DNA from: a virus
IMG/VR virus record: IMGVR_UViG_3300036760_000011
Coordinates: 1-30,124 of that record
DNA length: 30,124 nucleotides
Reading direction: 5' to 3' (one strand)
The translations under genes and the position numbers were made by a program. This document shows positions 6,701 through 29,384 of this stretch, one piece after another. The notes under the pieces are model-generated. The model was not told where the DNA came from. It saw only the letters and a list, made by a program, of their open reading frames with translations, and searched no databases. How positions within the stretch are numbered: position 1 is the stretch's first letter; every line of letters begins with the position of its first letter.

Positions 6701-9700
6701 ACGTGTAGGCGGTGATGAGGTACTCTTTCATTCTAGATTAGAAGCTGTTGCACAAGCTGAAAGGTTTATTGAAAGAATGTTAGATGATGCTGTCATACAA
6801 AATGATGAACGAGCTACCATTTGGGTTAATGAACAGCAAGTGATCCTAGCTGATATGCTTAGTACAGAAGGTGGCGATGACTATGTGGACGAGTCCTACG
6901 AGTCCTACACCCTTCCCGGAGGAGAGAACTATCGGGTGTATAAGTTTACGTTACCCGGAGTGTATGGAACTAATGATGAAGGGTCACAGAAATTCCAATC
7001 TGCACATTTCCCTGAGTTGAACATCTTCGCTCACATACGTGTCAAGGATCGCACTCTCCCCGACGGTCGTAAGATGTTCTTCGTCGAGGAGACACAGAGC
7101 GACTGGCACCAGCAGGGACGAGAGAAGGGGTATGTTGGTAATATAACTGATGAGATGATGAGTGATGCGAATAGTGCAATTGGGAGAGCACGAAATACTG
7201 TTGATATACATGCTGCGATACTGTCTAACAAATATGGTGATCTGGTTGCTTCTACTGCTGTTAGTACTGCTGATCAAGTAGAAGCTGGTCGCTTATACGC
7301 AGAGTTACATAGAGCAGAACTAGAGTATGACAGACTTCGTCAAAGACAGCGTACTACTATCCCCAACGCTCCCTTCAAGCGTACATGGCACGAGTTCGTA
7401 ATGAAGCGTGTTCTGCGCCTAGCTGCCGAGGGTGGGTACGACGTAGTGGGGTGGACAACAGGGGAGCAGCAGGCAGAGAGATATGATCTGAGCAAGGTGG
7501 CTGACAGAATATCATGGATAAATACAAGTGGAGAGAATGTGAGTATAGAAGCGTATAAGAAAGCTGTGCAAGGCGCTGATTTATATGCTCCAGGTCATGA
7601 CATTCTTCAACACCGTGCAGAGTACCCGCTCTCTGACCTGCCAGATGTAATAGGTAAGGAGCTAACGCAGAAAATCGTAGCCGAGATTGCTAAGGACACA
7701 CGTAGTGGTATATTCCGTGGCGAAGACCTCAAGGTCGGTGGCCACGGTATGCGTGAGTGGTACGACGGTATCCTACCCAAGTTCATGAACAGCTTCACGC
7801 GCAAGTGGGGAGGGAAAGTAGAGGAGACACCGTTAGATACTCCTGAGTCTGGGGAGTTGATGGAAGATGTCCACACTCTTACTCTCACTCCCGAGCTAAA
7901 GCAAGCTGCTCTACGTAACGAGTTCAGTCTGTATCAGCCAGGACCGAGAGGGACAAATGTTATTTTACGATACTCTGGTAAAGGATACCCTGAAGTTGGT
8001 GATAAATTGTGGTATCTATTGGACGCTGCTAAACAAGCTATGGGACGCATTGTTCAACTTAATGAACTTAAACTTTTAATAACACCCAATACAACATCTA
8101 TAGAACCTTGGAGACTATCGTTTCTTGTAGGCAATTATCCTATAGGACATCTAAGTTACGCAACACACCAAGAAGCTTTGATGTCGGCAGAAGAACATGG
8201 ATTTAAGCCGGTAGCATTCCGTCAAGATGAAGGTGCTACTGGCCCTCGTGGGAGTATTCGTTTCAGTGAGAATGGTGTCAACATAAACCTATTTAAGAAC
8301 GCTGATCTCAGCACGTTCCTCCATGAGACAGGACACTTCTATCTTGAGGTACTGCGTGACTTAGCTGGTAGCAATGAGAGTATCAAGAAAGACTACGATA
8401 TACTCCGCTCATGGGTAGGTGCTATGAGTGAGACTGATGTACTTACACGTGAACAACATGAGATGATAGCTCGTGGATTTGAGAAGTATCTCATGGAGGG
8501 TAATGCTCCAAGTATTGCGCTTCGTGCCGCATTCACACGTTTCCGTGCATGGCTTACAACCATCTATCGTAGCTTGGTGAATCTGAAAGTTGAACTTACT
8601 CCTGAAGTACGTGGTGTGTTCGACCGTCTAGTTGCTACCGAGGATGAGATAGCCACAGCTTACAAGAATCTTGGCCCACTCTTTACAGATCCCAAAGCTG
8701 CTGGTATGACAGATGAAGCAGCCGTAAGGTACGAGGATGCCATTGCTGAGGCTCGTGCTGCATCAGAGGAGGAGTTGACTACTAAGCTCATAGACGATGT
8801 GCGTAAGGAGCAGAAGCGTCAGTACAAGCAACAGCGCGAGCAGGTACGCCAGCAGGTTGCTGATGAAGTTAATCAGGATCCTGTGTGGCTGGCTGTGTCC
8901 GCCCTTAGTCGCAACCAACTCCCAGATGGTAGTCCGCTTCTTATACCCAAAGCTATTCCTAAGCTAAATAGACAGGCTATCGTAGACATGTACGGAGGAG
9001 ACAGTAAGGTGCTGCTCTCGCTCCCGCAAGGAATATATACCAAAGACGGCGGTATCCATCCAGATGAGGCTGCCGCACTATTTGGCTTTAAGTCTGGTGA
9101 TGAGATGCTGAAGGCTCTACCCGGACGTGGAGAGGGGACAGCATTGTCACGCATAGAGCGTCTTACCGATGAGAAAATGCGTGCTGAGCATGGTGACTTA
9201 TACACTGATGGCCGTCTGCCTGCTGAGGCTATGAAGGCCGTACACAACGATGAACGTGCCAAGCTGCTTCACATGGAACTCCAGCACCTTGCCAGTGACA
9301 ACCTACCAGCGCTGAAAGGTCTCATACGTAAGGTAGTGCGTCGTGTACCTGCCACTAAGCAAGTACGTGCAGAAGCTGAACGCTTGATAGCAGGGAAAAA
9401 GAATCGGGACATCAACTCTAACACGTACAGACAGGCTGAGGGTAAAGCCAGCACCGCCGCACGTGAGGCGCTCCTGAAAGGTGATGTGGAGCTAGCGTTC
9501 CAAGAGAAACTGAAGGAGACATTCAACCATGAGCTATTCCGTGCGGCCAGTGCTGCACGTGAAGAGATGGACGCTGTCGCAGAGAACATGGCTCGTTTCA
9601 ACAAGACCAGCACGCGTGATCGTCTCAAGAAAGCTGGAGGTAGCTATCTTGCACAGATAGACAGCATACGTGAACGGTTTGATTTCCGTGTCAGTGTTAC

Positions 9701-12020
9701 TAGCAAGGATCTTGACAGTAAGCAAAGTCTACTCGACTTTGTCAACGAACAGGCTGATATGGGCCTACCTGTTGATGTGCCTGCTGCGTTGTTGAATGAG
9801 GCGAACAAGAAGCATTACAAGGATCTTACCCTCACCGAGCTACGTGATATTGACACAGCAGTCAGGCAAATAGAACATCAGGCTCGGCTCAAGAATAAAC
9901 TCCTTGCTAGCAAGCGAAAGCGTGAGTTTAACGAAGCTAAAGCTGATATCATCGGAGCAATAGAAGAGAATCATAAGCGAGCCACCGAGCCTCTTGACCT
10001 AGTACCCAGCTTACGTAAACGACTTCGTGCAGGGTTGAAGAGTGCTATGGCAGCACATACGAAGATGGAGTTCCTCTTTGAATGGCTTGATGGCAATAAG
10101 GACAATGGAACAGTGTGGCAGTATCTATTCAAACCATTTGCTGATGCTGAGAGTGCTGAGAACAAGTTACAAAAACATGCAGCTAATGAGATGGCTGTCA
10201 TATTCAATGAATACAGCCGCGCTGAACGTGCACGATGGTTTTATAACAAGATACACGTAGACGGTTTTGAAACTACGTTTACCAAAGCTAATCTACTCAC
10301 TGTTGCAATGAACTGGGGAAATGAAGGAAACCGTGAAGCAATGATGGCTGGTTACGGATGGACAGAGGAAAAGGTACAGAAGCTTCTGGATCTATTAGAC
10401 GAGCGTGATTGGCGTGTAGTGCAGGCCATATGGAAGCACCTAGAGACATACTGGCCCGCTGTAGCCAAACTTGAGCGTGAGTTAAATGGACTGCCTCCAG
10501 AACGGGTAGAAGCTAATCCGTTCCAGACCAAGTATGGAGAGATGCCAGGAGGGTACTATCCTATAGTGTTCGAGAGTAAGCTATCATGGCGACAAGCCAA
10601 GCTTAATGCACGTGAGCAAGTGCAAGACCTGTACGGTGGTAAGTGGTCACGAGCGATGACCAAGCATGGTCATACTATCGAGCGAGAGAATAGTGGTGGT
10701 AAGCCAATAGTACTGGACCTGAGTGGGTTGACAGAGCATGTGTCTAATGTCATTCATGATCTTACTCATCGTCGTGCTGTCATTGACGTAGGTCGTCTCA
10801 CTGATAATGCTGAAGTACGTAGTGCATTTGAGCAGACAGTGGGACGTGAGATGTATCGTCAAATCAATCCGTGGCTTGTTAACATAGCTACAGATAGACG
10901 TGGTAATTATACCAATGCAATTGAAGGATTGCTCGGTAAAGCTCGTACAGGCGCTACCGTGGTGAACATGGGTTGGAAGATGACCACCGCTATTGTTCAA
11001 TTCCTCGGGTACACTGGTAGCGTGAAGGAGCTAGGAGTACAATACGCCATGCTAGGACTACGAGATACTTACGCTCACCCTTGGGAGGTACGCAAGCACT
11101 GGGAGTTCGTGACCAGTCGTAGTGGGTTTATGCATGATAGACTTACCACGTATGATCGTGATGCGCGTGATGCACTCAAGCGTCTACACGTTGTCGGTGC
11201 TAGTGGTGGTCCACTATCTATAGTAGATGCATATACATCTGGCATGGCGAATACGTGGTTTAGCCTCATCGGTTGGATGGACATGGGCGTATCCATTCCC
11301 ACATGGTTAGCTGGTTATCGTAAGGTAATGGACGGTAAGGTGGAGGGTCTGGCTGCTGGAGATGAGGAGGCAGCTATTGACTACGCGGACAAGGTTGTGC
11401 GCCAGACACAGGGTGTGGGTAGTGCTAAGGACTTGGCTACGGTGCAGTCTGGTAGTGAGACGTTCCGTCTATTTACCATGTTCTACAGCTACTTCAGTGG
11501 TCTGTTCAATCAATTCGTAAAGGTATCTCATCAGTATCAACTTGATAAGTCTAAAAGCAAGGTGATAGGCGCAGCCATGTTGCTGTGGTTTGCCCCTGCT
11601 GTGCTGAGTGAAGTAATGTTAGGTCGCGGTCCAGGTGATGATGCGGATGATGAGGAGTGGCTCAAGTGGTTGCTGAAAACAGAACTACTCTATCCACTTC
11701 AGTCTGTCATCTTAGTACGTGACATCGTAAACGGCATGACACAGTTTGGCTACGAGCCGAGTGCTGCGTTCGACGCTTACGAGTCTATCTCTAAGACAGG
11801 ACGTGCAATCGCTTTGCGTGTTACTGGTGATAAGGATGAATTCACACGTGCTGATGCTAAAGCTGCTGCATTGATGGTAGGATACTTCACCAAGCTTCCT
11901 GCACGACAGGTGTGGTTGTCTGCTGAATACTTCTATGATTGGCTGACGGGAGAACAAGAACCTGCCAACTTGCTCGAGGGAGCATGGCACACTATCGTAA
12001 CAGGTAAACCGAGAGACTAA
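3771..12020 (+). CDS. Giant multidomain ejection/polyvalent protein with zincin-type motif
   Basis: This 2749-residue protein fills more than a quarter of the window. From N to C: a helical region resembling phage ejection proteins (1-195); a glycine-zipper, membrane-prone segment (about 200-245, GAAKGAAAGTAVGLAGA); a helical region with WNTYWQGHNLAPEDVADELG (about 468); a KLPNGDVY...HGFITSTGRYV module (about 735-800); a conserved module with NYRVYKFTLPG, FVEETQSDWHQQGR and WTTGEQQAERYDLSK (about 1050-1245); a metallopeptidase-like HETGH motif at 1518-1522 within LSTFLHETGHFYLEV; long charged helices (1620-2150); and a C-terminal domain with FRLFTMFYSYFSG (about 2563) and a hydrophobic stretch (about 2597-2617). 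The FVEE..SDWH, HExxH and C-terminal modules match the 'polyvalent protein' domains described in phages and mobile elements. By position it replaces T7 gp16, so it is probably packaged and injected. Enzymatic activity is inferred from the motif only. It is coupled by TAATG at both ends. Confidence 0.85.
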   Translation: MGSSIQRFLDQSKDGPQKREDSQVGRWLTGEDEDAKLKLSVHVADPSQADKSARILRLQTKTGLPQDLIERNLDSIETQARKSDFNADAFRRASPIVAKWLAENPHNVAVATPDLKKLSWMEQEFGYVADQWKQGVALTELTQIGLAAMDGTITSAQRKRQVELDEQSTHFRSHDDYGWLGNVFADLPGAVANQIPIFGMTLGGQVEGAAKGAAAGTAVGLAGALPGAAVGATAGALLGWRLGAGLQAARMEGALAYLEYEKLKDENNKPLSRETALGAAVITGVVNGALEMVGFESISRNIPGLRGLQRGAIKKALMSETSRKAFSRYARGVGESTILNGGQEYLQDVMKNGAEEIALMINDGSIKTASPGQIIDRIFSPAHVAEGLSDAYQGALGGGGMSAAGGSISLGIDVQRARNARKISNFFQALGETTSNSELVKKLPDKMQEVVARITKDGPAETAHTPVDAWNTYWQGHNLAPEDVADELGIRSQYDEAVSTGGDIAIPMSVYAAKLAPTPHNNFFVKEMRLDPSAMNLRESEEMSKKLDDLAQENKTEAPATEDIVSGIAKELMTARPDMYDEETARTTAEVHASIFEALGKRVGKDPVELFKQYALSTQLAENAIPVEGALNQDRVLQSRIQGLSPEATTQARVFYEGFNASVKRLLTAMNVEQSPEKIQAARTELVDLLRQLNEFEHGGNTLFQAGRKKPKLISPQEKDFNPRRKNEHIVGAAIKLPNGDVYAGDWHGAAIDSYFEDNFPDAWKSNKPVSLPEGTDTHGFITSTGRYVTEVEAEQIMLREKQIKGKAVGEMTAQHIPEQDNIYISDEEFYQSSNDAIVPLLGGFFSKAESIVEQKMPARATPADIRGLLKDIKAEEREWLGLDKYLDSLPADKKVSKQELTAFLQASRLNVVEVTKTEFINDERVLDDAWDEFIRNYRRHRVTSDFRIEHTNEGWKATFLSDALAAEPWEQDHLGERVGGDEVLFHSRLEAVAQAERFIERMLDDAVIQNDERATIWVNEQQVILADMLSTEGGDDYVDESYESYTLPGGENYRVYKFTLPGVYGTNDEGSQKFQSAHFPELNIFAHIRVKDRTLPDGRKMFFVEETQSDWHQQGREKGYVGNITDEMMSDANSAIGRARNTVDIHAAILSNKYGDLVASTAVSTADQVEAGRLYAELHRAELEYDRLRQRQRTTIPNAPFKRTWHEFVMKRVLRLAAEGGYDVVGWTTGEQQAERYDLSKVADRISWINTSGENVSIEAYKKAVQGADLYAPGHDILQHRAEYPLSDLPDVIGKELTQKIVAEIAKDTRSGIFRGEDLKVGGHGMREWYDGILPKFMNSFTRKWGGKVEETPLDTPESGELMEDVHTLTLTPELKQAALRNEFSLYQPGPRGTNVILRYSGKGYPEVGDKLWYLLDAAKQAMGRIVQLNELKLLITPNTTSIEPWRLSFLVGNYPIGHLSYATHQEALMSAEEHGFKPVAFRQDEGATGPRGSIRFSENGVNINLFKNADLSTFLHETGHFYLEVLRDLAGSNESIKKDYDILRSWVGAMSETDVLTREQHEMIARGFEKYLMEGNAPSIALRAAFTRFRAWLTTIYRSLVNLKVELTPEVRGVFDRLVATEDEIATAYKNLGPLFTDPKAAGMTDEAAVRYEDAIAEARAASEEELTTKLIDDVRKEQKRQYKQQREQVRQQVADEVNQDPVWLAVSALSRNQLPDGSPLLIPKAIPKLNRQAIVDMYGGDSKVLLSLPQGIYTKDGGIHPDEAAALFGFKSGDEMLKALPGRGEGTALSRIERLTDEKMRAEHGDLYTDGRLPAEAMKAVHNDERAKLLHMELQHLASDNLPALKGLIRKVVRRVPATKQVRAEAERLIAGKKNRDINSNTYRQAEGKASTAAREALLKGDVELAFQEKLKETFNHELFRAASAAREEMDAVAENMARFNKTSTRDRLKKAGGSYLAQIDSIRERFDFRVSVTSKDLDSKQSLLDFVNEQADMGLPVDVPAALLNEANKKHYKDLTLTELRDIDTAVRQIEHQARLKNKLLASKRKREFNEAKADIIGAIEENHKRATEPLDLVPSLRKRLRAGLKSAMAAHTKMEFLFEWLDGNKDNGTVWQYLFKPFADAESAENKLQKHAANEMAVIFNEYSRAERARWFYNKIHVDGFETTFTKANLLTVAMNWGNEGNREAMMAGYGWTEEKVQKLLDLLDERDWRVVQAIWKHLETYWPAVAKLERELNGLPPERVEANPFQTKYGEMPGGYYPIVFESKLSWRQAKLNAREQVQDLYGGKWSRAMTKHGHTIERENSGGKPIVLDLSGLTEHVSNVIHDLTHRRAVIDVGRLTDNAEVRSAFEQTVGREMYRQINPWLVNIATDRRGNYTNAIEGLLGKARTGATVVNMGWKMTTAIVQFLGYTGSVKELGVQYAMLGLRDTYAHPWEVRKHWEFVTSRSGFMHDRLTTYDRDARDALKRLHVVGASGGPLSIVDAYTSGMANTWFSLIGWMDMGVSIPTWLAGYRKVMDGKVEGLAAGDEEAAIDYADKVVRQTQGVGSAKDLATVQSGSETFRLFTMFYSYFSGLFNQFVKVSHQYQLDKSKSKVIGAAMLLWFAPAVLSEVMLGRGPGDDADDEEWLKWLLKTELLYPLQSVILVRDIVNGMTQFGYEPSAAFDAYESISKTGRAIALRVTGDKDEFTRADAKAAALMVGYFTKLPARQVWLSAEYFYDWLTGEQEPANLLEGAWHTIVTGKPRD

Positions 12021-18036: not shown

Positions 18037-20156
18037 GTCATACGTACCTTAAGCGCAATACCCTTCCAGCCTCGTACATTCTTTCTCTTCACAGGTTTGA
18101 ATTCTGGTTTCTCTGCAAGCAAACGTGTGAACCATCCCATACTAACGGGACGCTGACCTGTACCACGTGTCTCCATCCACCAGTCAGTAAATGCTTGATA
18201 CAGTGCAGCGGTACTAACCCAACTAGCAGGATCCATCTTACTGCTCGTTATGAGGAACTCACCAAGTATATCATTCTCATCACGGTAGTGTCTGGTAGCT
18301 CTCTTCACTGCGATGGGTTCATGTAATCCAGTCTTACGCCATTCAATACAACCATCTATCGCCCAATTAAGAATACCAGGAATCTCCTTCAGTAGTTTCT
18401 GAGCTAGACGCTTGTCTCTGTTATCTGCGGTGAATACAGCGGTGAATGGGATTAATCGTATTCTACGCCAGAACCCTTCAGTCTGCTCCTTCACTATAGG
18501 TTTATGATTGGCCGCTAAGAACAGCTTATGCTGTGGCTTGAACTCAGTCTCACTCTCATACAACTTACGAGCCGTAACCGTGTCACTACCTGTTAGCATC
18601 TTAATAAGCTTACTGTCAAACCCCTTCTCGCTATCAGCTTCACTGGCTGTCACCAGTCGTGCACCATGTAATCGTGCGATATCAGTGCGCGGACCGCCAC
18701 TATCAAACCTATGGGCGAGGAAAGTATTGAAATCTGTCTGTCGTGCATACTCTCCTAACATACTACGCAGCGTCTCAAGGAACGTGGACTTACCATTGCT
18801 ACCCTGTCCATAGCAGAAGAACAAACACTCCTCTCGTGTATCACCTGTAAGTGCATAACCTACTGCCCGCTGTAAGAAATTGACTAGCTCAGTGTCGCCA
18901 GACATAATCTCTGTGAGAAACTTATTCCATAGAGGTGCGTTTGCATTAGGATCGTACTGCACAGGGGCCAGCTTGGTGATTAAATCTTCACGTCGATGTG
19001 GTCTAAGGGTGCCAGTACGCAAATCAACTGTACCATTCTCCACATTAAGGAACCACGGATTACTGTCGAGCATATCTGGCGTGGTTGAAAGCTCTGGTTC
19101 AGTCGCTGCCAGTTCAAGCATATTTCGTATTCTGTTTGCACTCTCACTGGTAACTGCGTGCTTGATAATACTGTCTCGCTTATCTGCATCTGTGACCTCG
19201 TTAGCTTCTAAATAGATACGTCGTACCGTCTGCTTGGCTAGTCTGTTTACCTCACCTGTAGTATCAGGTGTCCAACGTGAACCATCCCACATCATCCACG
19301 GTCTACGCATAGACATGATAGCCCGTACTGTGCCTTCATGCTGTGTGATGAACCTACGTGCGTTACCTAAGTCTGTGAAGTGTTCGCTGTATGCCTTGGG
19401 GGACTTGCGTGCTATGCTCTTGGCTATGCGCCGTATGTCACGGTCAGGTAATGGTGGATTGACACGTGTCTCATTCTCTTCACGTAAAGCTGCTAGTATG
19501 GCCGATTCACTAGCACCTCGCCGGCGCATGGTGCCTGCTAGCGATGTCAGTAGGTTGTCACGCTCACCCTCACCGATAACATCTGGTAGTGGTGGTGCTT
19601 GTTGACGCGTAATGTCCACACCGTTGTCACCTAATAACGACAGTAACCGTTGTGGGAACCTACGCAGTGACATCTTGTTCTCCCACCTATACACGCGTCC
19701 CGTCTCTGGATGTATGCTTGGCGGTGCTACTACATAGCCACCGTCTCCAAGAACATCTAGCGCATACTTACGACCATCCTTACGTATGCGTATGGTACGC
19801 GGTATGGGACTGCTATCTAAGGTGGGCGCGTAATACAAGTGACGCTTACGATTGTGGCCGCTACTGGCCTCACGTGTCTCAGACAGTTTGAGTAGGCTAA
19901 CTAGTTTCCAACCGTCAGTCTCTCCTTGCTTGGGGTCATCTAAATCTATTACGATGGGTCCGGTTGTGCTACTACAAGCTATACCGATATTGGCGTCTGG
20001 GTGTTCTCTCCACCATCTACGTATCTGTTTCTTGTTTGTAGTTGCGTCCAAGAAACCACGAGACTCGGGGAAAGGTTTCTTTCCTTTGAGAGGAAAGACT
20101 CCCCACCCCCGAGCCGCGTAGCGTAGCGCAGCAGCGAGCAACTGCTCGTCAGCCAC
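18033..20156 (-). CDS. Prim-Pol primase fused to D5-type SF3 helicase
   Basis: This 707-residue protein is a primase-helicase. An archaeo-eukaryotic Prim-Pol domain fills about residues 1-175: GWGVFPLKGKKPF, the metal-binding VIDLDD at 69-74, RHLYY around H106, and DVLGDGGYVVAPPSIHP. A PriCT-like helical segment (about 196-252, LTSLAGTMRRRG...LPDRDI) follows. The C-terminal half is a D5/P4-type superfamily 3 helicase, with Walker A GQGSNGKST at 450-458, ASEAD near 504-508 and the arginine-rich GFWRRIRLIPF at 561-571. It should unwind the phage origin and prime DNA for the family A polymerase. The start is a GTG at 20156, seven bases after the SSB-like gene's stop; there is no strong Shine-Dalgarno sequence, which suggests coupling. 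It overlaps the polymerase gene by 4 bp. Confidence 0.93.
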   Translation of the reverse strand: MADEQLLAAALRYAARGWGVFPLKGKKPFPESRGFLDATTNKKQIRRWWREHPDANIGIACSSTTGPIVIDLDDPKQGETDGWKLVSLLKLSETREASSGHNRKRHLYYAPTLDSSPIPRTIRIRKDGRKYALDVLGDGGYVVAPPSIHPETGRVYRWENKMSLRRFPQRLLSLLGDNGVDITRQQAPPLPDVIGEGERDNLLTSLAGTMRRRGASESAILAALREENETRVNPPLPDRDIRRIAKSIARKSPKAYSEHFTDLGNARRFITQHEGTVRAIMSMRRPWMMWDGSRWTPDTTGEVNRLAKQTVRRIYLEANEVTDADKRDSIIKHAVTSESANRIRNMLELAATEPELSTTPDMLDSNPWFLNVENGTVDLRTGTLRPHRREDLITKLAPVQYDPNANAPLWNKFLTEIMSGDTELVNFLQRAVGYALTGDTREECLFFCYGQGSNGKSTFLETLRSMLGEYARQTDFNTFLAHRFDSGGPRTDIARLHGARLVTASEADSEKGFDSKLIKMLTGSDTVTARKLYESETEFKPQHKLFLAANHKPIVKEQTEGFWRRIRLIPFTAVFTADNRDKRLAQKLLKEIPGILNWAIDGCIEWRKTGLHEPIAVKRATRHYRDENDILGEFLITSSKMDPASWVSTAALYQAFTDWWMETRGTGQRPVSMGWFTRLLAEKPEFKPVKRKNVRGWKGIALKVRMT

Positions 20157-20163
20157 TCGGCTG

Positions 20164-20904
20164 TTACCGGCGAGCAGTCTTCTTCTTAGCTACTGGCTTC
20201 TTGGCTACTGATTTCTTCTTGGCTACTGTACGGCGAGTTGGAGGTTCATCATCCTCATCCTCATCTTCGTCGTCCGAGTCGTCGTCCTCATCTTCGTCTT
20301 CGTCGTCAGAGTCATCCGAGTCATCCTCATCCTCATCTTCGTCGTCCGAGTCGTCGTCCTCATCTTCGTCTTCGTCGTCAGAGTCATCCGAGTCATCCTC
20401 ATCCTCATCCTCTTCATCGTCTGAGTCAGTGTCCTCATCAAGATCTTCATCATCGTCAGACTCATCGATGTCTTCGTCCTCGTCGTCACTTGCACTTGCT
20501 CCAGGAGGCAGGTACTGAATCACCTTGTTCTGCTTGCCGAACTCTTCAGTCACCTGCTTCTTGATGACAGCACCAAATCCCTTGGAAGCAAGGAATAGCT
20601 TCATCACGTCCTGTAGTGTGAGACCCTTCTTGACCTTCTTCTTCGGGATACCGAGTGCTAGCAACAGTTGAGCAATCTTCCACCCCACATGTGCTGCGAT
20701 ATTGTCAAACACCTCGATCCCTTTGTGTGGACCAGATGAGATGGTCATCGCGGCTTGGAAAATGTTGCTCTCTGTCCCTGGCTTGATCTTGGTGTCTGCC
20801 TTCTTTGGCTTGAACTGGTAACGTCCACCCGGAGCGACTTTGAAAGACTTCGCTTTGAAATCGTCATCCGTCAAACGGATAACGTCCTTCTTGCTGGCTG
20901 CCAT
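20164..20904 (-). CDS. SSB-like (DUF669-type) protein with acidic then basic tail
   Basis: I place the start at the ATG at 20904, with GAGG about 9 bases upstream; a GTG at 20919 overlapping the previous stop would add five residues. The 246-residue protein has an N-terminal domain of about 130 residues (SFKVAPGGRYQFKP, FDNIAAHVGWKIAQLLLALGIP). This resembles the DUF669/single-strand-binding proteins that phages encode next to a Sak4-like ATPase. Residues 140-220 are almost only Asp, Glu and Ser, built from a 24-residue repeat. Residues 224-246 are basic (RRTVAKKKSVAKKPVAKK). Acidic tails of SSBs recruit partner proteins; the basic end after it is unusual. The gene sits between the ATPase and the helicase-primase, consistent with coating ssDNA at forks or during annealing. 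Confidence 0.75.
   Translation of the reverse strand: MAASKKDVIRLTDDDFKAKSFKVAPGGRYQFKPKKADTKIKPGTESNIFQAAMTISSGPHKGIEVFDNIAAHVGWKIAQLLLALGIPKKKVKKGLTLQDVMKLFLASKGFGAVIKKQVTEEFGKQNKVIQYLPPGASASDDEDEDIDESDDDEDLDEDTDSDDEEDEDEDDSDDSDDEDEDEDDDSDDEDEDEDDSDDSDDEDEDEDDDSDDEDEDEDDEPPTRRTVAKKKSVAKKPVAKKKTARR
20249..20411 (+). repeat. 72-bp tandem repeat encoding the acidic tail
   Basis: Two adjacent copies with a period of exactly 72 bp (copy 1 from 20252, copy 2 from 20324) are identical over essentially their whole length. They encode a 24-residue Asp/Glu/Ser unit in the SSB-like gene. On the plus strand the repeat is a run of TCATCC, TCGTCG and GAGTCA words. Because 72 is a multiple of three, copy-number change by slippage would alter tail length without breaking the frame. 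Confidence 0.9.
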
Positions 20905-23007: not shown

Positions 23008-24614
23008 GTGAACAGTTTCCTTAGTTCTCCTACGGTGAATACACCTGTAAAGGTGCTGTGTCTATCTATCAGGCGACGCTCCATGCGTTGCTCGTAACTG
23101 TCTGTGACTATCACACGATAGCTTGTAGTGGGAACCAGTTTACCCGTACCCTCCTCGGGTCTATCCACTCTACCATCACGCTGTTCAAAATCACGCGGTG
23201 TCCACGGTAAGTCAAGATGAATAACATACCCGTACCCACCAAGATTCAGAGCCGTATCTCCGGCGGCAGACACGACTATCAGTGCGTTGAAATCTCCACG
23301 TAGAAATCGTTTCTTTACCTCACGTATCTTCTTATGCATCCCACCGTGTATGTAACCCACTGTCAGCCGTTGCTTGGCTAAGAACACACCTAGATGCTGA
23401 GCAGCTTGCCTGAATTCGGTGAAGATAACAGTGGGCGCATCTATCTGGTCAAGTAGCTCTAGTATGGCAGGGTACTTCACTGACTTCTCTCGACCACCTA
23501 CCAGTGCAGGATCAATCAGGTACTGACGCATACGCGTGACACGTGCAAGGTCATTGATAATAGGTACATACTTGTCTCCTCCACCTAATGCAGCTAGCTC
23601 AGCAAACGCTTGCTTACGTAAACGGTCATACTCTCGTTTACCACTGGTTGTTAGTGCTACACTGATAGCAGATGGATGCGTGATACGTGGTAGAGATTTG
23701 AATACCTCCTGTTTAGTACGACTAATGGTGAACGGTGCTATCTCCCATCGTAGTAGCTTGGGTCTACGTGCTCCCTTAATATCAAAGCCACCGAACGGTC
23801 TGGGAGAGGCTTTGACATGCATATGAAAGAATCGCCAATAGGAACGGTACACGTCAGGATATAAGAACTTGAGTATGGAGAATAATTCACCCGGATCTTT
23901 GCTAAATGGATGAGCGGTACACGCCATGCGTGCGAGAGATCGTAGCTTATAGGCATTCAGACTCCTCAACGCTTTCCTGTTAGCCATGTACTGTGCTTCA
24001 TCGAAGATGATAGCATCCCACGGTCGCTGTCTGTAGCCTAGTCGTGCATGTGTGAGTGATTCCCAATGACCTATTACCCATCCCTCCCGTGTACTGGCTT
24101 GGACGATCTGTTCAGCAATGGTACCCTGTACAATTGTTATCTGTTCGTGACGACCTATCCACTGATGAATGGCGTCACTCCATTGCTCCTTGGCGATATT
24201 CTTTGTAATGATAAGGATACTTCTAGCTTTTACTATCACGGACGCCCAGAGGAGCGCTTGAAGGGTCTTGCCGACGCCCGTCTTATCGGCTACTAGATAC
24301 GCTGGCATATTAGCCATACGAAAATAGTGGAGCGCTGCACGTTGATGGGGAAATGCTTGCCACTCTAGTCTGCTGACAGGCCATGCATCAGTGAGCAGTT
24401 TCACCTTAGCCAGCTTGACACGCCACTTCTCTTCAGTATCAAGTATGTAATGAGTGCTCGGAGATAACATCATCCCGCGTTTCTCAGCAGCTTTGATAAT
24501 AGCAGGGAGGACAGGACATCGTTGCACTACTGCGGCATCTGCACCGATGATGGATGCCATACGGTCTATGTCGTGCTCAGACCATCGTAGTTGGGTGCCT
24601 CGGAGTCGTAACAT
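23004..24614 (-). CDS. SNF2-type superfamily 2 DNA helicase/translocase
   Basis: This 536-residue protein has an N-terminal segment of about 85 residues and then two RecA-like lobes. Motif I is DKTGVGKT (K116), motif II is DEAQ (205-208), and motif III is a TAHPF variant. In the second lobe are VIFTEFRQAAQ (motif IV region), VSAAGDTALNLGGYGYVIHLDLPW (motif V) and QRDGRVDRPEEG (motif VI). DEAQ replaces the usual DEAH/DEGH. Phage SNF2-type proteins probably remodel branched DNA or displace proteins. Here it sits next to a RecB-like nuclease, so an end-processing pair is plausible. Its ATG overlaps the stop of the small basic protein (TAATG), and its stop overlaps the nuclease start. Confidence 0.88.
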   Translation of the reverse strand: MLRLRGTQLRWSEHDIDRMASIIGADAAVVQRCPVLPAIIKAAEKRGMMLSPSTHYILDTEEKWRVKLAKVKLLTDAWPVSRLEWQAFPHQRAALHYFRMANMPAYLVADKTGVGKTLQALLWASVIVKARSILIITKNIAKEQWSDAIHQWIGRHEQITIVQGTIAEQIVQASTREGWVIGHWESLTHARLGYRQRPWDAIIFDEAQYMANRKALRSLNAYKLRSLARMACTAHPFSKDPGELFSILKFLYPDVYRSYWRFFHMHVKASPRPFGGFDIKGARRPKLLRWEIAPFTISRTKQEVFKSLPRITHPSAISVALTTSGKREYDRLRKQAFAELAALGGGDKYVPIINDLARVTRMRQYLIDPALVGGREKSVKYPAILELLDQIDAPTVIFTEFRQAAQHLGVFLAKQRLTVGYIHGGMHKKIREVKKRFLRGDFNALIVVSAAGDTALNLGGYGYVIHLDLPWTPRDFEQRDGRVDRPEEGTGKLVPTTSYRVIVTDSYEQRMERRLIDRHSTFTGVFTVGELRKLFT

Positions 24615-24796
24615 TATCGGCGACCCTGCTTCTTACGCAGTTTAGCAGCGCTCTTAGTCGCAGCATCCTTACGGTACTGTCGAAGACGACGCCTGATAAT
24701 CTGTTGGGCTGTGTATCCGCGCCAGAAGGGAGCGGTGCGCTTGCGCGGTAGTCCGGCAGGTCGTGGTGTAAATACCCGCCGACGTATTCGTTTCAT
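24614..24796 (-). CDS. Small Arg/Lys-rich protein
   Basis: This 60-residue protein starts MKRIRRRVFTPRPAG. It is extremely basic, with clusters RRRLRQYRK and KLRKKQGRR. It is either a nucleic-acid-binding peptide or a protein with a ribosomal-protein-like character. A GTG at 24805 would add three residues; neither start has a strong Shine-Dalgarno sequence. The TAA overlaps the helicase ATG as TAATG, the same junction type used elsewhere in this phage, and that is the best evidence that it is translated. It is the first gene of the replication operon and follows a 147-bp gap containing one copy of the 17-bp inverted repeat just upstream of its start. Confidence 0.6.
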   Translation of the reverse strand: MKRIRRRVFTPRPAGLPRKRTAPFWRGYTAQQIIRRRLRQYRKDAATKSAAKLRKKQGRR

Positions 24797-24805
24797 TAGG
24801 GACAC

Positions 24806-24943
24806 AGAGATATTTCGATTGTTGTGTGACGGAGCGGACCCTACAATGGCTCAATCTACAGCACAGCAGCAAAGTTGGAGTATATATACCAGACCTCTAG
24901 TGCTACTGTACTGTAGTTGCGCCCCTACTCACCCGCCGGAAAG
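24806..24943. promoter_or_regulatory. Intergenic gap between two leftward genes; possible control region
   Basis: This gene-free gap is one of only two longer gaps in the leftward block. It holds one copy of the 17-bp inverted repeat (24816-24832). On the minus strand it also holds an extended -10-like TGGTATATAT (24882-24891), with a 14-bp near-palindrome, CTACAGTACAGTAG, at 24903-24916 where a -35 or operator would lie. No good -35 hexamer is present. It would be the natural place for the promoter of the replication operon. This is inference from layout and weak motifs. Confidence 0.35.
24816..24832 (+). repeat. 17-bp inverted repeat, left copy
   Basis: CGATTGTTGTGTGACGG reads here on the plus strand and again, exactly, on the minus strand at 28038-28054. 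After a short gap both copies continue with related words (GGACCCTACAATG here, GGACCCCACAGTG in the other). It lies 11-20 bases upstream of the basic-protein gene's possible GTG and ATG starts. Confidence 0.85.
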
Positions 24944-25741
24944 CTACTTGGACAGCTTGACGTTGCCCTTCATGATGTCCCATGCGAGGTCAACACGACG
25001 TCCACCGGCGGTGATGAACTGCTCATACGTCATCCCCTTCTTGAGCAGGTTCCAACTGTTGAAGCCATGTGTATCCTCACGACGAGGATTGACCTTCTCC
25101 AGCCGGATGATGGTCTTGCCGCTGTACATGGACACCCGTCCCGGACCGTTGCTCTCGCCGTTGCTGGTGCTCTTTGCAGCGACTTTCTTGCTTGAACCTT
25201 TCTTCCCCTTCTTGCTACTCTTGCGGGACGCGACTGCGGTCTCTTTGGCTGCCATTGTGATACCCTCTTTGTTTCCGGTGATGAGCCGCAGGACAATCCT
25301 GACGGCTACTATTGGGTCATTCGACTTCGGCACTCGTCCGCCCAACTCCCGAATGACCGCATGGAGTAGAGGAACGCTCTTCCCACCAAACTTCTCCAAC
25401 CAACTACGTACTGTCCAACCCTCGTTGGATGCTACCCTATGTCGTAGCGTGTCCCACGAGGTAACACGACCGTCGCCCATACTGCTATGAATCAAACGCT
25501 TGACAGAAACTTTCCTGTCCATCGCTGTATGCTCAGCTAGCCAACCCACACACTCACGTCCAGCGGCATCAAGCCAGCGTACAGTATGCTCGCGTGTATC
25601 ACCGGTGATAGGACTCGATAGTTTATTCTTCAGGACACCTACTATCGTATCCTCTCCCAAGTGCTGTGCACCCCAAAATGGGCGTCCTGTCTCTTGACGT
25701 GGTACTACGACAGCAGCCGCTAGGAGTCTGTAGTACCTCAC
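24944..25741 (-). CDS. Two-part basic protein with repeated NPRR/WNLL/GGRR domain; probable internal start
   Basis: I do not recognise the first 160 residues (contains FWGAQHLGEDTIVG, GRVTSWDTLRHRV, EGWTVRSWLEKFGG). The second part, from Met163, has a Lys/Ser-rich linker (RKSSKKGKKGSSKKVAAKS) and then a domain at 208-265 with NPRRE, WNLLKKGMT, TAGGRR and WDIMKGN. This domain is about 63% identical over 46 residues to the N-terminus of the gene at 26136-26777. The start is a GTG at 25741 overlapping the previous stop, preceded by a perfect AAGGAGG at a short spacing. The in-frame ATG at 25255 also has AGAGG about 8 bases upstream, so a separate 103-residue product is likely. It may be a fusion of two former genes, and it is possibly DNA-binding. 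Confidence 0.72.
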   Translation of the reverse strand: MRYYRLLAAAVVVPRQETGRPFWGAQHLGEDTIVGVLKNKLSSPITGDTREHTVRWLDAAGRECVGWLAEHTAMDRKVSVKRLIHSSMGDGRVTSWDTLRHRVASNEGWTVRSWLEKFGGKSVPLLHAVIRELGGRVPKSNDPIVAVRIVLRLITGNKEGITMAAKETAVASRKSSKKGKKGSSKKVAAKSTSNGESNGPGRVSMYSGKTIIRLEKVNPRREDTHGFNSWNLLKKGMTYEQFITAGGRRVDLAWDIMKGNVKLSK

Positions 25742-26139
25742 GCTGCCTCCTTCAGACGCTTACGTCTGGGTCGCTTGACAACAACGGGAGGAGGAGCCAT
25801 ACGAGCACATCCTCCTATAGCCTTGAACACACGAAGCTCGATGAACTCGAGGGTGTCATGCTTACTGAACCTACGCTTACGGCTGTATCGTCTACGAATG
25901 TGCTTGACTTTATAACCAGTAAGCGGACCACGTGTCCATGTGATGAATCTCCACTCACGCACATTTTCGTACGGTTGTGGATTGTCTTTCAACATCCATG
26001 CGCACACCACATAGATGTTTACTACTGGGATGGTGCGATCAGCAAACTTGAGTCTGTCTTGCTCACGCATTTGCTGTCGCAATCGTGCCAACCGTTCCTC
26101 CTCATATGTGGGAGGTACGGGTGATACAAGAAGTGTCAT
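25738..26139 (-). CDS. Basic phage protein of unknown function (133 aa)
   Basis: This is a 133-residue protein with no family that I recognise. The N-terminus is a charged helix (YEEERLARLRQQMREQDRLKF). The middle is beta-like and aromatic (NIYVVCAWML, REWRFITWTRGPLTGYKV). The second half carries two very basic patches (HIRRRYSRKRRFSK and KRPRRKRLK). The start at 26139 is well supported by AGGAG six bases upstream and a 4-bp ATGA overlap with the previous gene. Its stop overlaps the next start as GTGA. The charge suggests nucleic-acid binding; nothing more specific can be said. Confidence 0.72.
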   Translation of the reverse strand: MTLLVSPVPPTYEEERLARLRQQMREQDRLKFADRTIPVVNIYVVCAWMLKDNPQPYENVREWRFITWTRGPLTGYKVKHIRRRYSRKRRFSKHDTLEFIELRVFKAIGGCARMAPPPVVVKRPRRKRLKEAA

Positions 26140-26777
26140 CGGGTTCTCCTCTTAGTCTTGGAGGGTCGGTGCTTCTTGCTGTCCTTAGCTTGCTTGCGTG
26201 CTGTGTGTGCCTTCACCTCCTTGGTGTGTTGGCGACGATGTCGTTTGACTTTCCGTAGTGCTGCACTGTGAGCCAGCTTACGGAGACGCACATCTGGAAA
26301 CGAAAATTGCCCTGCAATGATGAGGTCAGCTTTCTCACCTGCTGCTGCTCTGACGTAACGATTCCCCTTGGGGCTGACATATACCATCAGCTTAATCGTA
26401 CGTCCCCTCATCGTGCGCTGTTCTCCACGGTCATCTTTGAACGCGACGTTCTCATAGTACCACTCGCGCTCACTAGTCCATAGATTGCTGCTCTTCAACC
26501 GCTTGACACCCTTGTCATCTACTCGTGGTACTGGAGCCGCTCCCTTGATGAACCGGGGACTCACCGTAGCTACTGGGATAGTGGCTGCCTTACCACTGCT
26601 GTCCACTAACTTACAGTTACCCTTGTCAACGTCCCAGCGTAGGTGATCACGCCTACCGCCAGCGGCAAGGTACTGCTCCACGGTCATACCCTTACGCAGT
26701 AGATTCCATGCTGTCCAGCCAGCAGTACCCTTGCGCCGAGGATTCTCCATCACGAGACGCTTGATGATGACTGTCAT
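26136..26777 (-). CDS. Protein with duplicated NPRR/WNLL/GGRR domain and basic C-tail
   Basis: Residues 1-58 of this 213-residue protein (NPRRKG, WNLLRKGMT, AAGGRR, WDVDKGN) match the C-terminal domain of the gene at 24944-25741. The domain is therefore present at opposite ends of two near neighbours. The middle (about 75-165) has LWTSEREWYYENVAF, RTMRGRTIKLMVYVSP and IAGQFSFPDVRLRKL and is not recognised. The last 40 residues are strongly basic (RKVKRHRRQHTK, KHRPSKTKRRTR). The start has GAGGT about 6 bases upstream and a 4-bp ATGA overlap with the previous gene. DNA or RNA binding is likely from charge, and the domain could recognise phage DNA or host nucleic acid. Function unknown. Confidence 0.74.
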   Translation of the reverse strand: MTVIIKRLVMENPRRKGTAGWTAWNLLRKGMTVEQYLAAGGRRDHLRWDVDKGNCKLVDSSGKAATIPVATVSPRFIKGAAPVPRVDDKGVKRLKSSNLWTSEREWYYENVAFKDDRGEQRTMRGRTIKLMVYVSPKGNRYVRAAAGEKADLIIAGQFSFPDVRLRKLAHSAALRKVKRHRRQHTKEVKAHTARKQAKDSKKHRPSKTKRRTR

Positions 26778-27061
26778 GCAGGTACCTCAGGGAGTGGGTG
26801 TGCCGCCAACCACTCCACGTGATGGTCGGTCTTGCACTCGTCATACATGGCACGTAGTAAGATGTTAGTACGATCTAGCGACTTATGCAGCAGCGCATTA
26901 GTCCACTCACGCCAGTGGAGCAGGATATGACGCTCCCACCGACGTGCTTTGAAAATGTCTTCTGTGGCACCGATGGTCTTGGCAACTGAGCCATCGTTAT
27001 GTATGGTGATGTCTATCACAACGCCATTGGTATTACGACGTACTGTGGTGAGGAATGTCAT
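26774..27061 (-). CDS. Phage protein of unknown function (95 aa)
   Basis: I place the start at the ATG at 27061 (MTFLTTVRRNTNGVV), which overlaps the previous gene's stop (ATGA) and has GGGAG about 5-6 bases upstream. A start at 27073 would add four residues without such support. The 95-residue product begins with a beta-like stretch (VVIDITIHNDGSVAKTIG). A mostly helical part rich in Trp, Arg and His follows (ARRWERHILLHWREWTNALLHK). It is cytoplasmic, with no membrane segment. It is a typical early-type small phage protein with no recognisable family. Confidence 0.65.
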   Translation of the reverse strand: MTFLTTVRRNTNGVVIDITIHNDGSVAKTIGATEDIFKARRWERHILLHWREWTNALLHKSLDRTNILLRAMYDECKTDHHVEWLAAHPLPEVPA

Positions 27062-27261
27062 AACTTCTCCCAAGGTGGTAGCACAAAGCAGATTTGTCTG
27101 ACAAGATGTTCTGGGAATGGTGCGTTACCGTGGACATCCGTGGTCCTTAGCCACAACTGCCGTAGTTCTTCTTTGTCAGTCGCATTAGCTACGACTCGAC
27201 CTTGTACTACAAAAGCAAAAGCTGAACCAAGCAACGTGCCAGATCTCCAGTCATTTGTCAT
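27058..27261 (-). CDS. Small phage protein of unknown function (67 aa)
   Basis: The start at 27261 (MTNDWRSGTLLGSAFAF) is supported by GAGG about 8 bases upstream and a 4-bp overlap with the previous gene. A GTG at 27285 is less convincing. The 67-residue protein has a short hydrophobic beta-like segment (GSAFAFVVQGRVV) and then a charged helix (DKEELRQLWLRT). Its C-terminal part is PFPEHLVRQICFVLPPWEKL. I do not recognise it. Coupled overlaps at both ends indicate a real gene. Confidence 0.6.
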   Translation of the reverse strand: MTNDWRSGTLLGSAFAFVVQGRVVANATDKEELRQLWLRTTDVHGNAPFPEHLVRQICFVLPPWEKL

Positions 27262-27464
27262 CCCATTGCCCTCAGCTTGACCCACTCACGGCTCACGGTG
27301 ATGGTGTCCTCACGTGAGCCACGTCGAGCCTGCATGTAGTAGTCGTTGATCTCGTCCTGTGTGGCACCCACAGCACGTATGGCATTCGCTACGTCAGTAG
27401 CGATGTCCGTGCCTGTACGACCGTAGGTGCTGATGCTGACCTGCGGGTAGCGTGGCTTCTTCAT
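27258..27464 (-). CDS. Small phage protein of unknown function (68 aa)
   Basis: This 68-residue protein starts MKKPRYPQVSISTYGRTGTD. I chose the ATG at 27464 because GGAGGAG lies about 7 bases upstream, inside the end of the previous gene, and the stop/start overlap is TGATG. The sequence reads as a short strand, a helix (DIATDVANAIRAVGATQDEINDYYMQAR) and a final strand/helix with VSREWVKL. The pattern 'KxPxVxxxTYGRTG...A...A.RAxGA...EI' is seen in small accessory proteins of several phages, without a known function. It is likely to be expressed early with its neighbours. Confidence 0.65.
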   Translation of the reverse strand: MKKPRYPQVSISTYGRTGTDIATDVANAIRAVGATQDEINDYYMQARRGSREDTITVSREWVKLRAMG

Positions 27465-27670
27465 CAGTCTCCTCCACCGCAAGAAGCATTTCGTAGAACT
27501 GCTTCGTACACGAGACCCTTGTAGTAGTTGACAGAGTCTCTACTCAGACCAGAGTACGCAAGCATCCCGTGAAGGAACACAGCCCAACTGTATGCATCAT
27601 CACCACCGTACTTGCGAGCAGTGATACCCATCTTGCGGTATTTCTTGATGGTCTCTGGTGAAAGTGGCAT
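27464..27670 (-). CDS. Small phage protein of unknown function (68 aa)
   Basis: This is a 68-residue, mostly helical protein (MPLSPETIKKYRKMGITARK, SWAVFLHGMLAYSGLSRDSV) with a C-terminal CGGGD. A good Shine-Dalgarno sequence (GGAG, 6 bases before the ATG) follows an AT-rich leader. This is the first gene after the 460-bp structured gap, so any transcript starting in that gap would begin with it. It is not recognised. Confidence 0.62.
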   Translation of the reverse strand: MPLSPETIKKYRKMGITARKYGGDDAYSWAVFLHGMLAYSGLSRDSVNYYKGLVYEAVLRNASCGGGD

Positions 27671-27769
27671 GGTGTTCTCCTAGTATCAGTATCAGAGTAA
27701 AAATGTAATCAGGAATTTATATCGGTGGCTCACGGTCTTCCCTTGACCTCGCTGTGGGGTCACACGTAC

Positions 27770-27811
27770 ACGGTACAGGCGCGGCAGCTTCAGCGCGTGG
27801 AGAGGTACCGT
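27770..27811. repeat. Nested hairpin ACGGTAC...GTACCGT
   Basis: A 7-bp perfect inverted repeat (27770-27776 and 27805-27811) encloses a second 4-bp one (GCGC at 27779-27782 and 27793-27796) around a 10-base loop. It lies 100 bases upstream of the first gene of the leftward small-gene cluster. It has no T-tract on either side, so it is not an obvious intrinsic terminator. Confidence 0.55.
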
Positions 27812-27884
27812 CACCACAGGTCCTTCGTAGACGGACGTAGCTAGCGTCCTCAATCATGAGCCAAACTCGCTGGGATGTCCCATT

Positions 27885-27959
27885 GTCATTGCGTCCGCCC
27901 TCCGTCTATCGACCGTACCGTTGCAACGGATACGTGGGAGGCAAGGGGGACGCAATGAC
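27885..27959. repeat. 75-bp imperfect palindrome
   Basis: The outer arms are a perfect 12-bp inverted repeat, GTCATTGCGTCC (27885-27896) and GGACGCAATGAC (27948-27959). Inside is a 5-bp pair, CCTCC (27899-27903) with GGAGG (27937-27941). At the centre is the perfect 12-bp palindrome CCGTTGCAACGG (27918-27929), whose axis nearly coincides with that of the outer arms. Arms, inner pair and core can all form one long hairpin or cruciform. Confidence 0.8.
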
Positions 27960-28037
27960 CGATTAGCGAGACAATCGAGCTTGAGGCGTCGGGCCTCCCT
28001 AGGGTTGTACCCACCTCTACACCTGCACTGTGGGGTC

Positions 28038-28054
28038 CCGTCACACAACAATCG
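28038..28054 (-). repeat. 17-bp inverted repeat, right copy
   Basis: On the minus strand this reads CGATTGTTGTGTGACGG, identical to 24816-24832 on the plus strand. It continues with GACCCCACAG, a word that recurs on the minus strand at 27752-27761. The two copies point towards each other across 3.2 kb that holds the small-gene cluster and most of the structured gap. Confidence 0.85.
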
Positions 28055-28132
28055 TGGATTAAGAATTGCATGATACAACCGATTCCGCAAGTGGTAAAAT
28101 CGAATCCGACAAATGTATATATCGTGTATGAG

Positions 28133-28432
28133 TTACGACTTCGGTAGTTCTAAGGGCACCTGCACCGCTGCTGACCGCTTGACCTTGCGTGCGGCCTCTT
28201 CTTTCATGTACACCCGTAATACAGCATCGCGTGACACGGTGAGTCGTCTACTAGCGTACTCAGGTGGGCCAAATTCGCCTGCTAGCATACGGTCACGTGC
28301 TCGTTGATACCGACATCCAAGGTACGCGGCCACCTGCGTAGGGCGCATACGGCGCGGATTGTCAGGCACACGCTCAGGCTTGGGTCGGGCCATGAGGTGT
28401 GTCTTGTACTTACGTCTCGGTTTATCGGCCAT
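28133..28432 (-). CDS. Excisionase/AlpA-like helix-turn-helix protein
   Basis: I place the start at the ATG at 28432 (MADKPRRKYKTH), which has GGAG about 8 bases upstream and overlaps the end of the glycosyltransferase-like gene by 11 bp. The 99-residue protein has a basic N-terminus. Residues about 30-75 have a winged-HTH look (MRPTQVAAYLGCRYQRARDRMLAGEFGPP...SRRLTVSRDAVLRVY), matching the layout of excisionase/AlpA/MerR-like DNA-binding domains. A Lys-rich tail ends it. It borders the structured gap, so it may act on a site there, either as a regulator or as an architectural factor. No integrase is visible in the window, so a role in excision is not supported. Confidence 0.68.
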   Translation of the reverse strand: MADKPRRKYKTHLMARPKPERVPDNPRRMRPTQVAAYLGCRYQRARDRMLAGEFGPPEYASRRLTVSRDAVLRVYMKEEAARKVKRSAAVQVPLELPKS

Positions 28433-29384
28433 GAGTGTGTCTCCATATGAGGTGCTTGTATGCTTGCAGAAGATACTGACGTAACTCAGCATGATAGGAA
28501 CGAAACCACATTGTCTGTTGCTTGGTTGCTATCACGACTCGATTCTTGAATGCGTGCTTGATAGCCACTTGACTATCTATCACGTACTCGTGCTCCATTT
28601 GAATACCATGTCTATCTAGCATGAGGGCTGCCATAGGTTCAAACACCATCGGCAGTCCTGCACTCAGCATCTCGTAGAATCTATTGGCAGGGCTGTGCCA
28701 CTCAGAATGGGATTTAGGGTCCTCTATGTATAAGCCAAGACCATGTGAATTGAGTGCCTGATAGAATCCGTTACCATGCTGTAGTCCTCCCATGTGATGT
28801 GTGTCTGGATACATGTGAAGGAATTTCTTGCTGGTGCTACTGATAGTCACAGGAATAGAGGGATGAATGAAATATATGTCAAACGTATGTCTTCTCTGTA
28901 CTCTGTATGCTCCGTAGTAAAACAGGTCTCTCGTAGGATACCATGCGGGTTCTAAGTACATCTTGAGACACATGAGCGCATTCCAGTTCATTTGCATACT
29001 ATCTGGTGTAACTTGGCTGTTAGCCTCTACCGTTGTCCAGTAGTCTGTTGGTAGCTTCCCACTAGCAGCACGCACTACGAAAGCACGTCTGAATGGACTC
29101 TCAGCCTTACACTCTACGTCGAACCGTGGAGGCTTGATGGTGTAGTCGTTCTGTATCCAGACGATACGTGTCGCTCGTCGTATAGCAGGTGCTAGGTCTG
29201 CCAAACAATCACAGAAGGCATATGCGCCATTGACTATGAACAAGATATCTAGACGCTCGTCACGTATGCGCTTATCGTAGTACAGGGGTAAGTCAAGTGT
29301 CTTAGCAATGAATCGCGCTAGATGGTTACTTACCACCGTACTGCCCCTAGCAGGCTTACTGAAGCTGAATACAGCATTATTCAT
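28422..29384 (-). CDS. GT-B glycosyltransferase-like protein
   Basis: I chose the ATG at 29384 (MNNAVFSFSKPARG), with AGGAG about 9 bases upstream. The longer frame from 29492 would lie over the previous gene. The 320-residue protein has two Rossmann-like halves: an N-terminal part with LDILFIVNGAYAF and ATRIVWIQNDY, and a C-terminal part with GLGLYIEDPKS and SPANRFYEMLSAGLPMVFEP (about 231-250). The latter is the typical donor-binding 'N.(F/Y)(Y)E.l..G.P' region of GT-B enzymes. A YYGAYR motif (157-162) precedes the second half. Possible targets are modified phage DNA bases, virion proteins or host envelope sugars. No base-modifying partner is seen in the window. The enzyme class is inferred. 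Confidence 0.65.
   Translation of the reverse strand: MNNAVFSFSKPARGSTVVSNHLARFIAKTLDLPLYYDKRIRDERLDILFIVNGAYAFCDCLADLAPAIRRATRIVWIQNDYTIKPPRFDVECKAESPFRRAFVVRAASGKLPTDYWTTVEANSQVTPDSMQMNWNALMCLKMYLEPAWYPTRDLFYYGAYRVQRRHTFDIYFIHPSIPVTISSTSKKFLHMYPDTHHMGGLQHGNGFYQALNSHGLGLYIEDPKSHSEWHSPANRFYEMLSAGLPMVFEPMAALMLDRHGIQMEHEYVIDSQVAIKHAFKNRVVIATKQQTMWFRSYHAELRQYLLQAYKHLIWRHTHGR

Follow-up and report, generated by a model that had tools for sequence, protein, structure and literature searches.

We analysed a 30,124-nt stretch of viral DNA (the window; IMG/VR record IMGVR_UViG_3300036760_000011), part of a podovirus-like phage, in which a perfect 17-bp inverted repeat (CGATTGTTGTGTGACGG) encloses seven small genes within the leftward-transcribed gene block. 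We propose, with a probability of roughly 40%, that this repeat is a phage-specific inverted pair located in the two control regions of a single, conserved block of early genes, base-pairing between the leaders of two transcripts being the most likely mechanism. A repeat suggestive of a mobile-element boundary would then mark two control regions in podovirus-like phages of a poorly described clade and, if the leaders do pair, form part of an RNA-based switch between early genes and replication genes which is encoded wholly in two leaders.

Results

The leftward block spans 14.5 kb and is densely packed, with a non-coding share of 4%. Its neighbouring genes overlap or are separated by no more than 7 bp, the exceptions being two gaps, one of 138 bp (gap A, left) and one of 462 bp (gap B, right). 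As the initial annotation had described, one exact copy of the repeat sits in each of these two gaps, seven open reading frames (ORFs) lie between the copies and both copies continue into related sequence; its coordinates were right (Table 1). The common extension (GGACCCYACARTG) is identical at 11 of 13 positions and is separated from the core by three additional bases (AGC) in the left copy, so that the outer part of the pair carries two substitutions and a 3-base indel while the 17-bp core is intact. Similarity ends abruptly at ~33 bp, with unrelated sequence beyond. The copies point at each other, one of them running against the gene direction. Searching the window with up to three mismatches returned two sites only and none near the rightward genes; the record itself comprises 30,124 bases and ends where the window ends, and the search for further copies suggested in the initial annotation found, in this record, none beyond these two. 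The claim that such a match is very unlikely by chance had to be divided. In 300 first-order Markov sequences of window length, 11 exact inverted 17-mer pairs were counted at a minimum copy distance of 100 bp, corresponding to ~0.04 per window, and the match by itself is mildly unlikely, whereas the occurrence of one copy in each of only two gaps is far rarer than the match alone. It is therefore the placement which makes the repeat striking.

On the leftward mRNA, the gap B copy reads CGAUUGUUGUGUGACGGGACCCCACAGUG and the gap A copy CAUUGUAGGGUCCGCUCCGUCACACAACAAUCG, with the 17-mer core CCGUCACACAACAAUCG. The duplex predicted between them consists of 16 pairs, a 3-nt bulge, 6 pairs, one mismatch and another 6 pairs, 28 pairs in all. 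Its computed energy amounts to −43.7 kcal/mol without opening costs and to −26.8 to −31.1 kcal/mol with opening costs included, compared with −24.4 kcal/mol for the strongest among 115 control stretches from elsewhere in the block. Pairing was scored by a local helix score and by co-folding, RNAduplex on whole gaps having been uninformative because helices lying far apart were joined into one structure. Within the predicted fold of gap A itself, this gap's side of the core stays unpaired, and the gap A copy ends ~10 nt 5' of the GTG start codon of a gene for a 63-amino-acid (aa) protein, where no clear ribosome-binding site was seen. Taking the stable predicted pairing and the unpaired gap A side near this GTG together, we consider leader–leader pairing as the working model and, with modest confidence, as the preferred mechanism. 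The 3-base insertion would also sit better with a bulged RNA duplex than with a rigid protein site. In the proposed model, gap B would start an early transcription unit and gap A the replication-gene unit, comprising the genes of the 63-aa protein, helicase, exonuclease, Sak4-like protein, primase and polymerase. The early leader from gap B would pair with the gap A leader just upstream of the 63-aa gene start codon and might thereby adjust how well the replication unit is translated or how stable it is, whether two transcripts pair in trans or one read-through transcript pairs in cis.

The locus was compared with a clade of metagenomic phage contigs collected by scans with the helicase and the primase, in which genes were called by a simple codon-usage script (L072 and L007 are the same contig). 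The closest relative, L015 (primase 69% identical), carries homologues of the 99-, 213-, 133-, 265- and 63-aa genes and of the helicase gene in the order of the window, and L003, L007, L008, L009 and L010 keep some or most homologues of interval and flanks. Order is maintained in L015, L003, L007 and L008, orientation in all relatives examined. On the left, the 63-aa gene and the helicase gene are kept as flank; on the right, a glycosyltransferase-like gene and a helix-turn-helix (HTH) gene precede gap B in L072 and L073, and in L009 and L005 gap B is likewise immediately preceded by the HTH gene. Interval length varies, from 3.2 kb in the window to ~5 kb in L005 and 7 kb in L009. Since the relatives keep the inner genes in order together with the flanks on both sides, the interval is, as judged from gene order, ancestral early-gene territory of the clade and not an insertion in this phage. 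The repeat itself was absent: the best matches of the 17-mer core and of the 33-bp versions in 12 relative loci did not exceed background, and an exact search of IMG/VR with the 17-mer and with core plus extension returned nothing in any other contig. The phage collection held no near-identical phage, and no relative of the helicase was found in bacterial genomes.

Gap A is found at the same place in L003, L005, L007, L008, L009 and L010, with strong long hairpins at the same position in L003, L007, L008 and L010 and a structured region in L009. L015 carries an additional gene after the 265-aa gene and, instead, a hairpin just before the 63-aa homologue, the 12–13-bp stem of which is perfect. 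A promoter-like motif, TACCWTATWTG, occurs in gap A of L007, L008 and L010, in a close form (TACCTTATATATG) in gap A of L009, and again in gap B of L009, L072 and L073. Gap B is longer in the relatives (691 bp in L009, 728 bp in L005, ~830 bp in L072) and contains a palindrome, TAAGT-N15-ACTTA, of which five sites were found in four genomes, every one in gap B and none elsewhere, against an expectation of 0.22 and an average of 0.27 for permuted arms; it looks like a putative operator. Predicted twister-P5 ribozymes end the gap B leader at its 3' end in L009 and in L072/L007, with a second copy in L009, in agreement with the association of twister ribozymes with phage genes stated elsewhere (PMC4604425). 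Outside palindrome and ribozyme, the gap sequences were too diverged for the alignment that an analysis of covariation needs. As an observation apart, the 728-nt non-coding leader of L005 (3789–4516) folds far better than shuffles (z −5.2) and matches no Rfam family.

In the window, gap A folds better than shuffled sequence (z −3.07). The structured non-coding region that had been noted inside the interval holds for one long hairpin in gap B (27885–27959); gap B as a whole folds no better than shuffles (z −0.99). The elements GGTATATATAC, in the loop of the gap A hairpin, and GATATATAC, in gap B, may be the counterparts of the TACCWTATWTG motif and are putative promoter elements. No twister ribozyme was found in the window itself, and a search of the window against Rfam gave nothing above the gathering score, its weak microRNA matches being attributable to chance. 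Because of the promoter-like motifs, hairpins, palindrome, ribozymes and position in the relatives, we infer that both gaps are start regions of transcription units. On sequence comparison, what is conserved is the two gaps, not the repeat. The operator-like palindrome and the ribozyme-bearing leaders of the relatives are perhaps the more useful by-product of this analysis and are testable in their own right.

Discussion

Among the readings offered by the initial annotation, the one in keeping with the context is a paired control region, both gaps being control-like in the relatives, while an exchangeable cassette and polymerase sites were not supported. The mobile cassette was rejected, since homologues of the inner genes in unchanged order and both flanks are kept in relatives such as L015, L003, L007 and L008 which do not carry the repeat; retention of the genes without the repeats in related genomes was the very outcome which the initial annotation had named as speaking against a cassette. 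Insertion sequences have terminal inverted repeats, and the interval resembles them in being exactly bounded by a perfect, inward-facing inverted repeat around a group of genes, whose content moreover varies among relatives (3.2 kb here compared to ~5–7 kb in L005 and L009). Unlike in insertion sequences, no transposase or target duplication was seen (the flanks read GAGATATTT before the left copy and TGGATTAAG after the right copy), and the interval appears ancestral to the clade. We found neither relatives with and without exactly this segment nor other content between the same repeats, and no tyrosine integrase in the record or in seven relatives, serine recombinases not having been searched. 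Terminal repeats or exchange points of a swappable cassette are therefore largely refuted and very improbable. Equally little credit is due to a role in a replication origin or as the site pair of an invertible segment: hairpins beside each copy and the replication proteins encoded by the block would suit it, but inner homologues share one orientation in all relatives examined, and the integrase search, with the limit just given, revealed no recombinase. Binding sites of an RNA polymerase acting genome-wide are not supported, there being two copies only, in opposite orientations and with none near the rightward genes; a search for single-subunit RNA polymerase (PF00940) in nine fragmentary relative records gave no match, but neither did its search controls.

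Leader pairing itself has to be weighed against several observations. The repeat occurs in no relative, and complementarity between a relative's own two gaps was absent in L009 and L007 and borderline in L005, where 5 of 300 shuffles were as good, so that compensating changes keeping the complementarity were not seen; even for the window, 1 of 300 shuffles reached the same gapped helix score. The pair would also look like this if it had arisen by a recent inverted duplication of ~33 bp. Such a small, functionless event, for example by template switch between two hairpin-rich gaps, is a possible though rather unlikely origin of the pair, which would account for its absence from all relatives and IMG/VR, for the drift already visible in the outer part and for the abrupt stop of similarity. 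It would, however, have had to find both source and target in the non-coding 4% of the block, in its two control regions, and to leave the 17-bp core intact. Similarly doubtful is that the copies bind one phage or host protein, such as the HTH protein from the gene flanking gap B; the bound protein would coordinate two early promoters and possibly loop out 3.2 kb. In the control region that contains it, each copy is no more than ~60 bp away from a promoter-like element, and in the relatives the same HTH gene, whose product weakly matches an excisionase/transcriptional-regulator family, adjoins the operator-like palindrome of gap B. A precedent for short asymmetric sites in phage promoters and intergenic spaces is mycobacteriophage L5, with more than 20 asymmetric 13-bp operators and stoperators which are oriented with transcription and lose function upon reversal (PMC9283540). 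The present repeat differs from this pattern of many sites oriented with transcription: there are two 17-bp copies only, facing opposite ways relative to transcription, and a repressor of the L5 kind was not identified. Furthermore, the spacing between core and extension differs by 3–4 bases between the copies, and the palindrome of the relatives has no counterpart in gap A. Protein site and functionless duplication are thus close rivals of leader pairing, from which the present data do not separate them.

Phage leader or antisense RNAs can pair with another phage transcript. Leader–leader pairing as proposed here shares with these systems a complementary stretch just upstream of a start codon, its complement being on a second transcript, but both partners would be predicted leaders of same-strand transcripts, 3.2 kb apart. 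A more elaborate version, which we regard as improbable, would restrict the pairing to trans: the early leader from gap B would bind the replication operon's leader, the 28-bp bulged duplex acting as a switch in the timing of early and replication genes. In the relatives, the same position in the leader would be occupied by the palindromic operator and by a self-cleaving twister ribozyme that may release free leader RNA.

Genes and further features

The rightward genes of the window encode a tail protein, an internal virion protein, an endolysin and a tail fibre, while the leftward replication genes encode DNA polymerase, primase-helicase, a Sak4-like protein, an exonuclease and a helicase. 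The helicase gene is followed in the leftward block by the gene of the 63-aa basic protein, gap A, the seven small genes, gap B, the HTH gene and the glycosyltransferase-like gene. The closest named phages are only distantly related, with ~40% identity between the tail protein and those of Cobetia phage Carin1 and epsilon15-like phages.

Table 1. Coordinates of the repeat, the two gaps, their genes and related elements. Positions without a contig name refer to the window.
Feature	Position	Strand	Remarks
Repeat, left copy (CGATTGTTGTGTGACGG)	24816–24832	+	17 bp, exact
Repeat, right copy (inverted CGATTGTTGTGTGACGG)	28038–28054	−	17 bp, exact
Left-copy extension (GGACCCTACAATG)	24836–24848	+	preceded by 3-base insertion AGC
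Right-copy extension (GGACCCCACAGTG)	28026–28038	−	directly continues core
Gap A, 138 bp	24806–24943	−	between 265-aa and 63-aa genes
Gap A long hairpin, ~20 pairs	24847–24919	−	loop contains GGTATATATAC
Gap B, 462 bp	27671–28132	−	between HTH gene and first small early gene
Gap B hairpin	27885–27959	−	arms 27885–27906 and 27938–27959, 82% complementary
Gap B promoter-like element (GATATATAC)	28111–28123	−	consensus match only
Second gap B candidate, sigma-70-like TTTACC-17-TATCAT	28098–28070	−	consensus match only
63-aa very basic protein	24614–24805	−	GTG start; kept close before helicase in relatives
265-aa basic protein	24944–25741	−	C-terminal domain (after internal ATG) is a separate ORF in L015
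133-aa basic protein	25738–26139	−	homologues in L015 and L008, order unchanged
213-aa basic protein	26136–26777	−	N-terminal domain paralogous to 265-aa C-terminus, 60% over 53 aa
99-aa protein	26774–27073	−	homologue in L015
Three small overlapping genes (75, 74, 68 aa)	27058–27670	−	
HTH protein	28133–28492	−	weak match to excisionase/transcriptional-regulator family phrog_66
TAAGT-N15-ACTTA sites	L005 3915; L009 555; L072 2034; L073 5145 and 5244		gap B, downstream of excisionase-like HTH gene
Twister-P5 ribozymes, predicted	L009 1072–1138 and 1512–1571; L007 253–322 (= L072 2702–2771)		above Rfam gathering score
18-bp repeat (CCTACCCTACTAYAGGAG)	L003 179, 2130, 3260, 6027; L009 nine copies and L073 four copies in their contigs; also L008, L010		

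The description of the seven inner genes as encoding small basic proteins applies to five of them (isoelectric point, pI, 9.1–11.2), the other two having pI values of 6.0 and 6.6. None of the seven matched Pfam, and none of the four tested matched PHROG. The 265-aa and 213-aa proteins share a paralogous stretch of 60% identity, formed by the C-terminal 55 residues of the former and the N-terminal 55 of the latter. In L015, the C-terminal domain of the 265-aa homologue is an ORF of its own in another frame, and in the window an ATG lies within the 265-aa gene, accompanied by a possible ribosome-binding site near 25255, which points to a nested or fused gene. Structure prediction for the 265-aa protein gave a moderate model (predicted local distance difference test, pLDDT, 70; predicted template modelling score, pTM, 0.54), which found no match in the PDB at E below 0.1.

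An 18-bp repeat, CCTACCCTACTAYAGGAG, lies directly before start codons in several relatives, in the early gene block only and always in gene orientation; the window holds degenerate versions only. It may be a promoter with a built-in ribosome-binding site or an RNA processing site.

Further along the leftward block, a very strong RNA hairpin (z −8.5) is predicted at 20045–20164, where the gene of a 251-aa acidic protein meets the primase gene, and structured stretches directly before the primase were also seen in L005, L007, L008 and L009. Long repeats at 20240–20470 encode the acidic, Asp/Glu/Ser-rich tail of this 251-aa protein (pI 4.2) and are kept in relatives. Downstream of the endolysin-like gene, a single ORF of 2749 aa extends over 3771–12020 and presumably encodes a very large virion protein.

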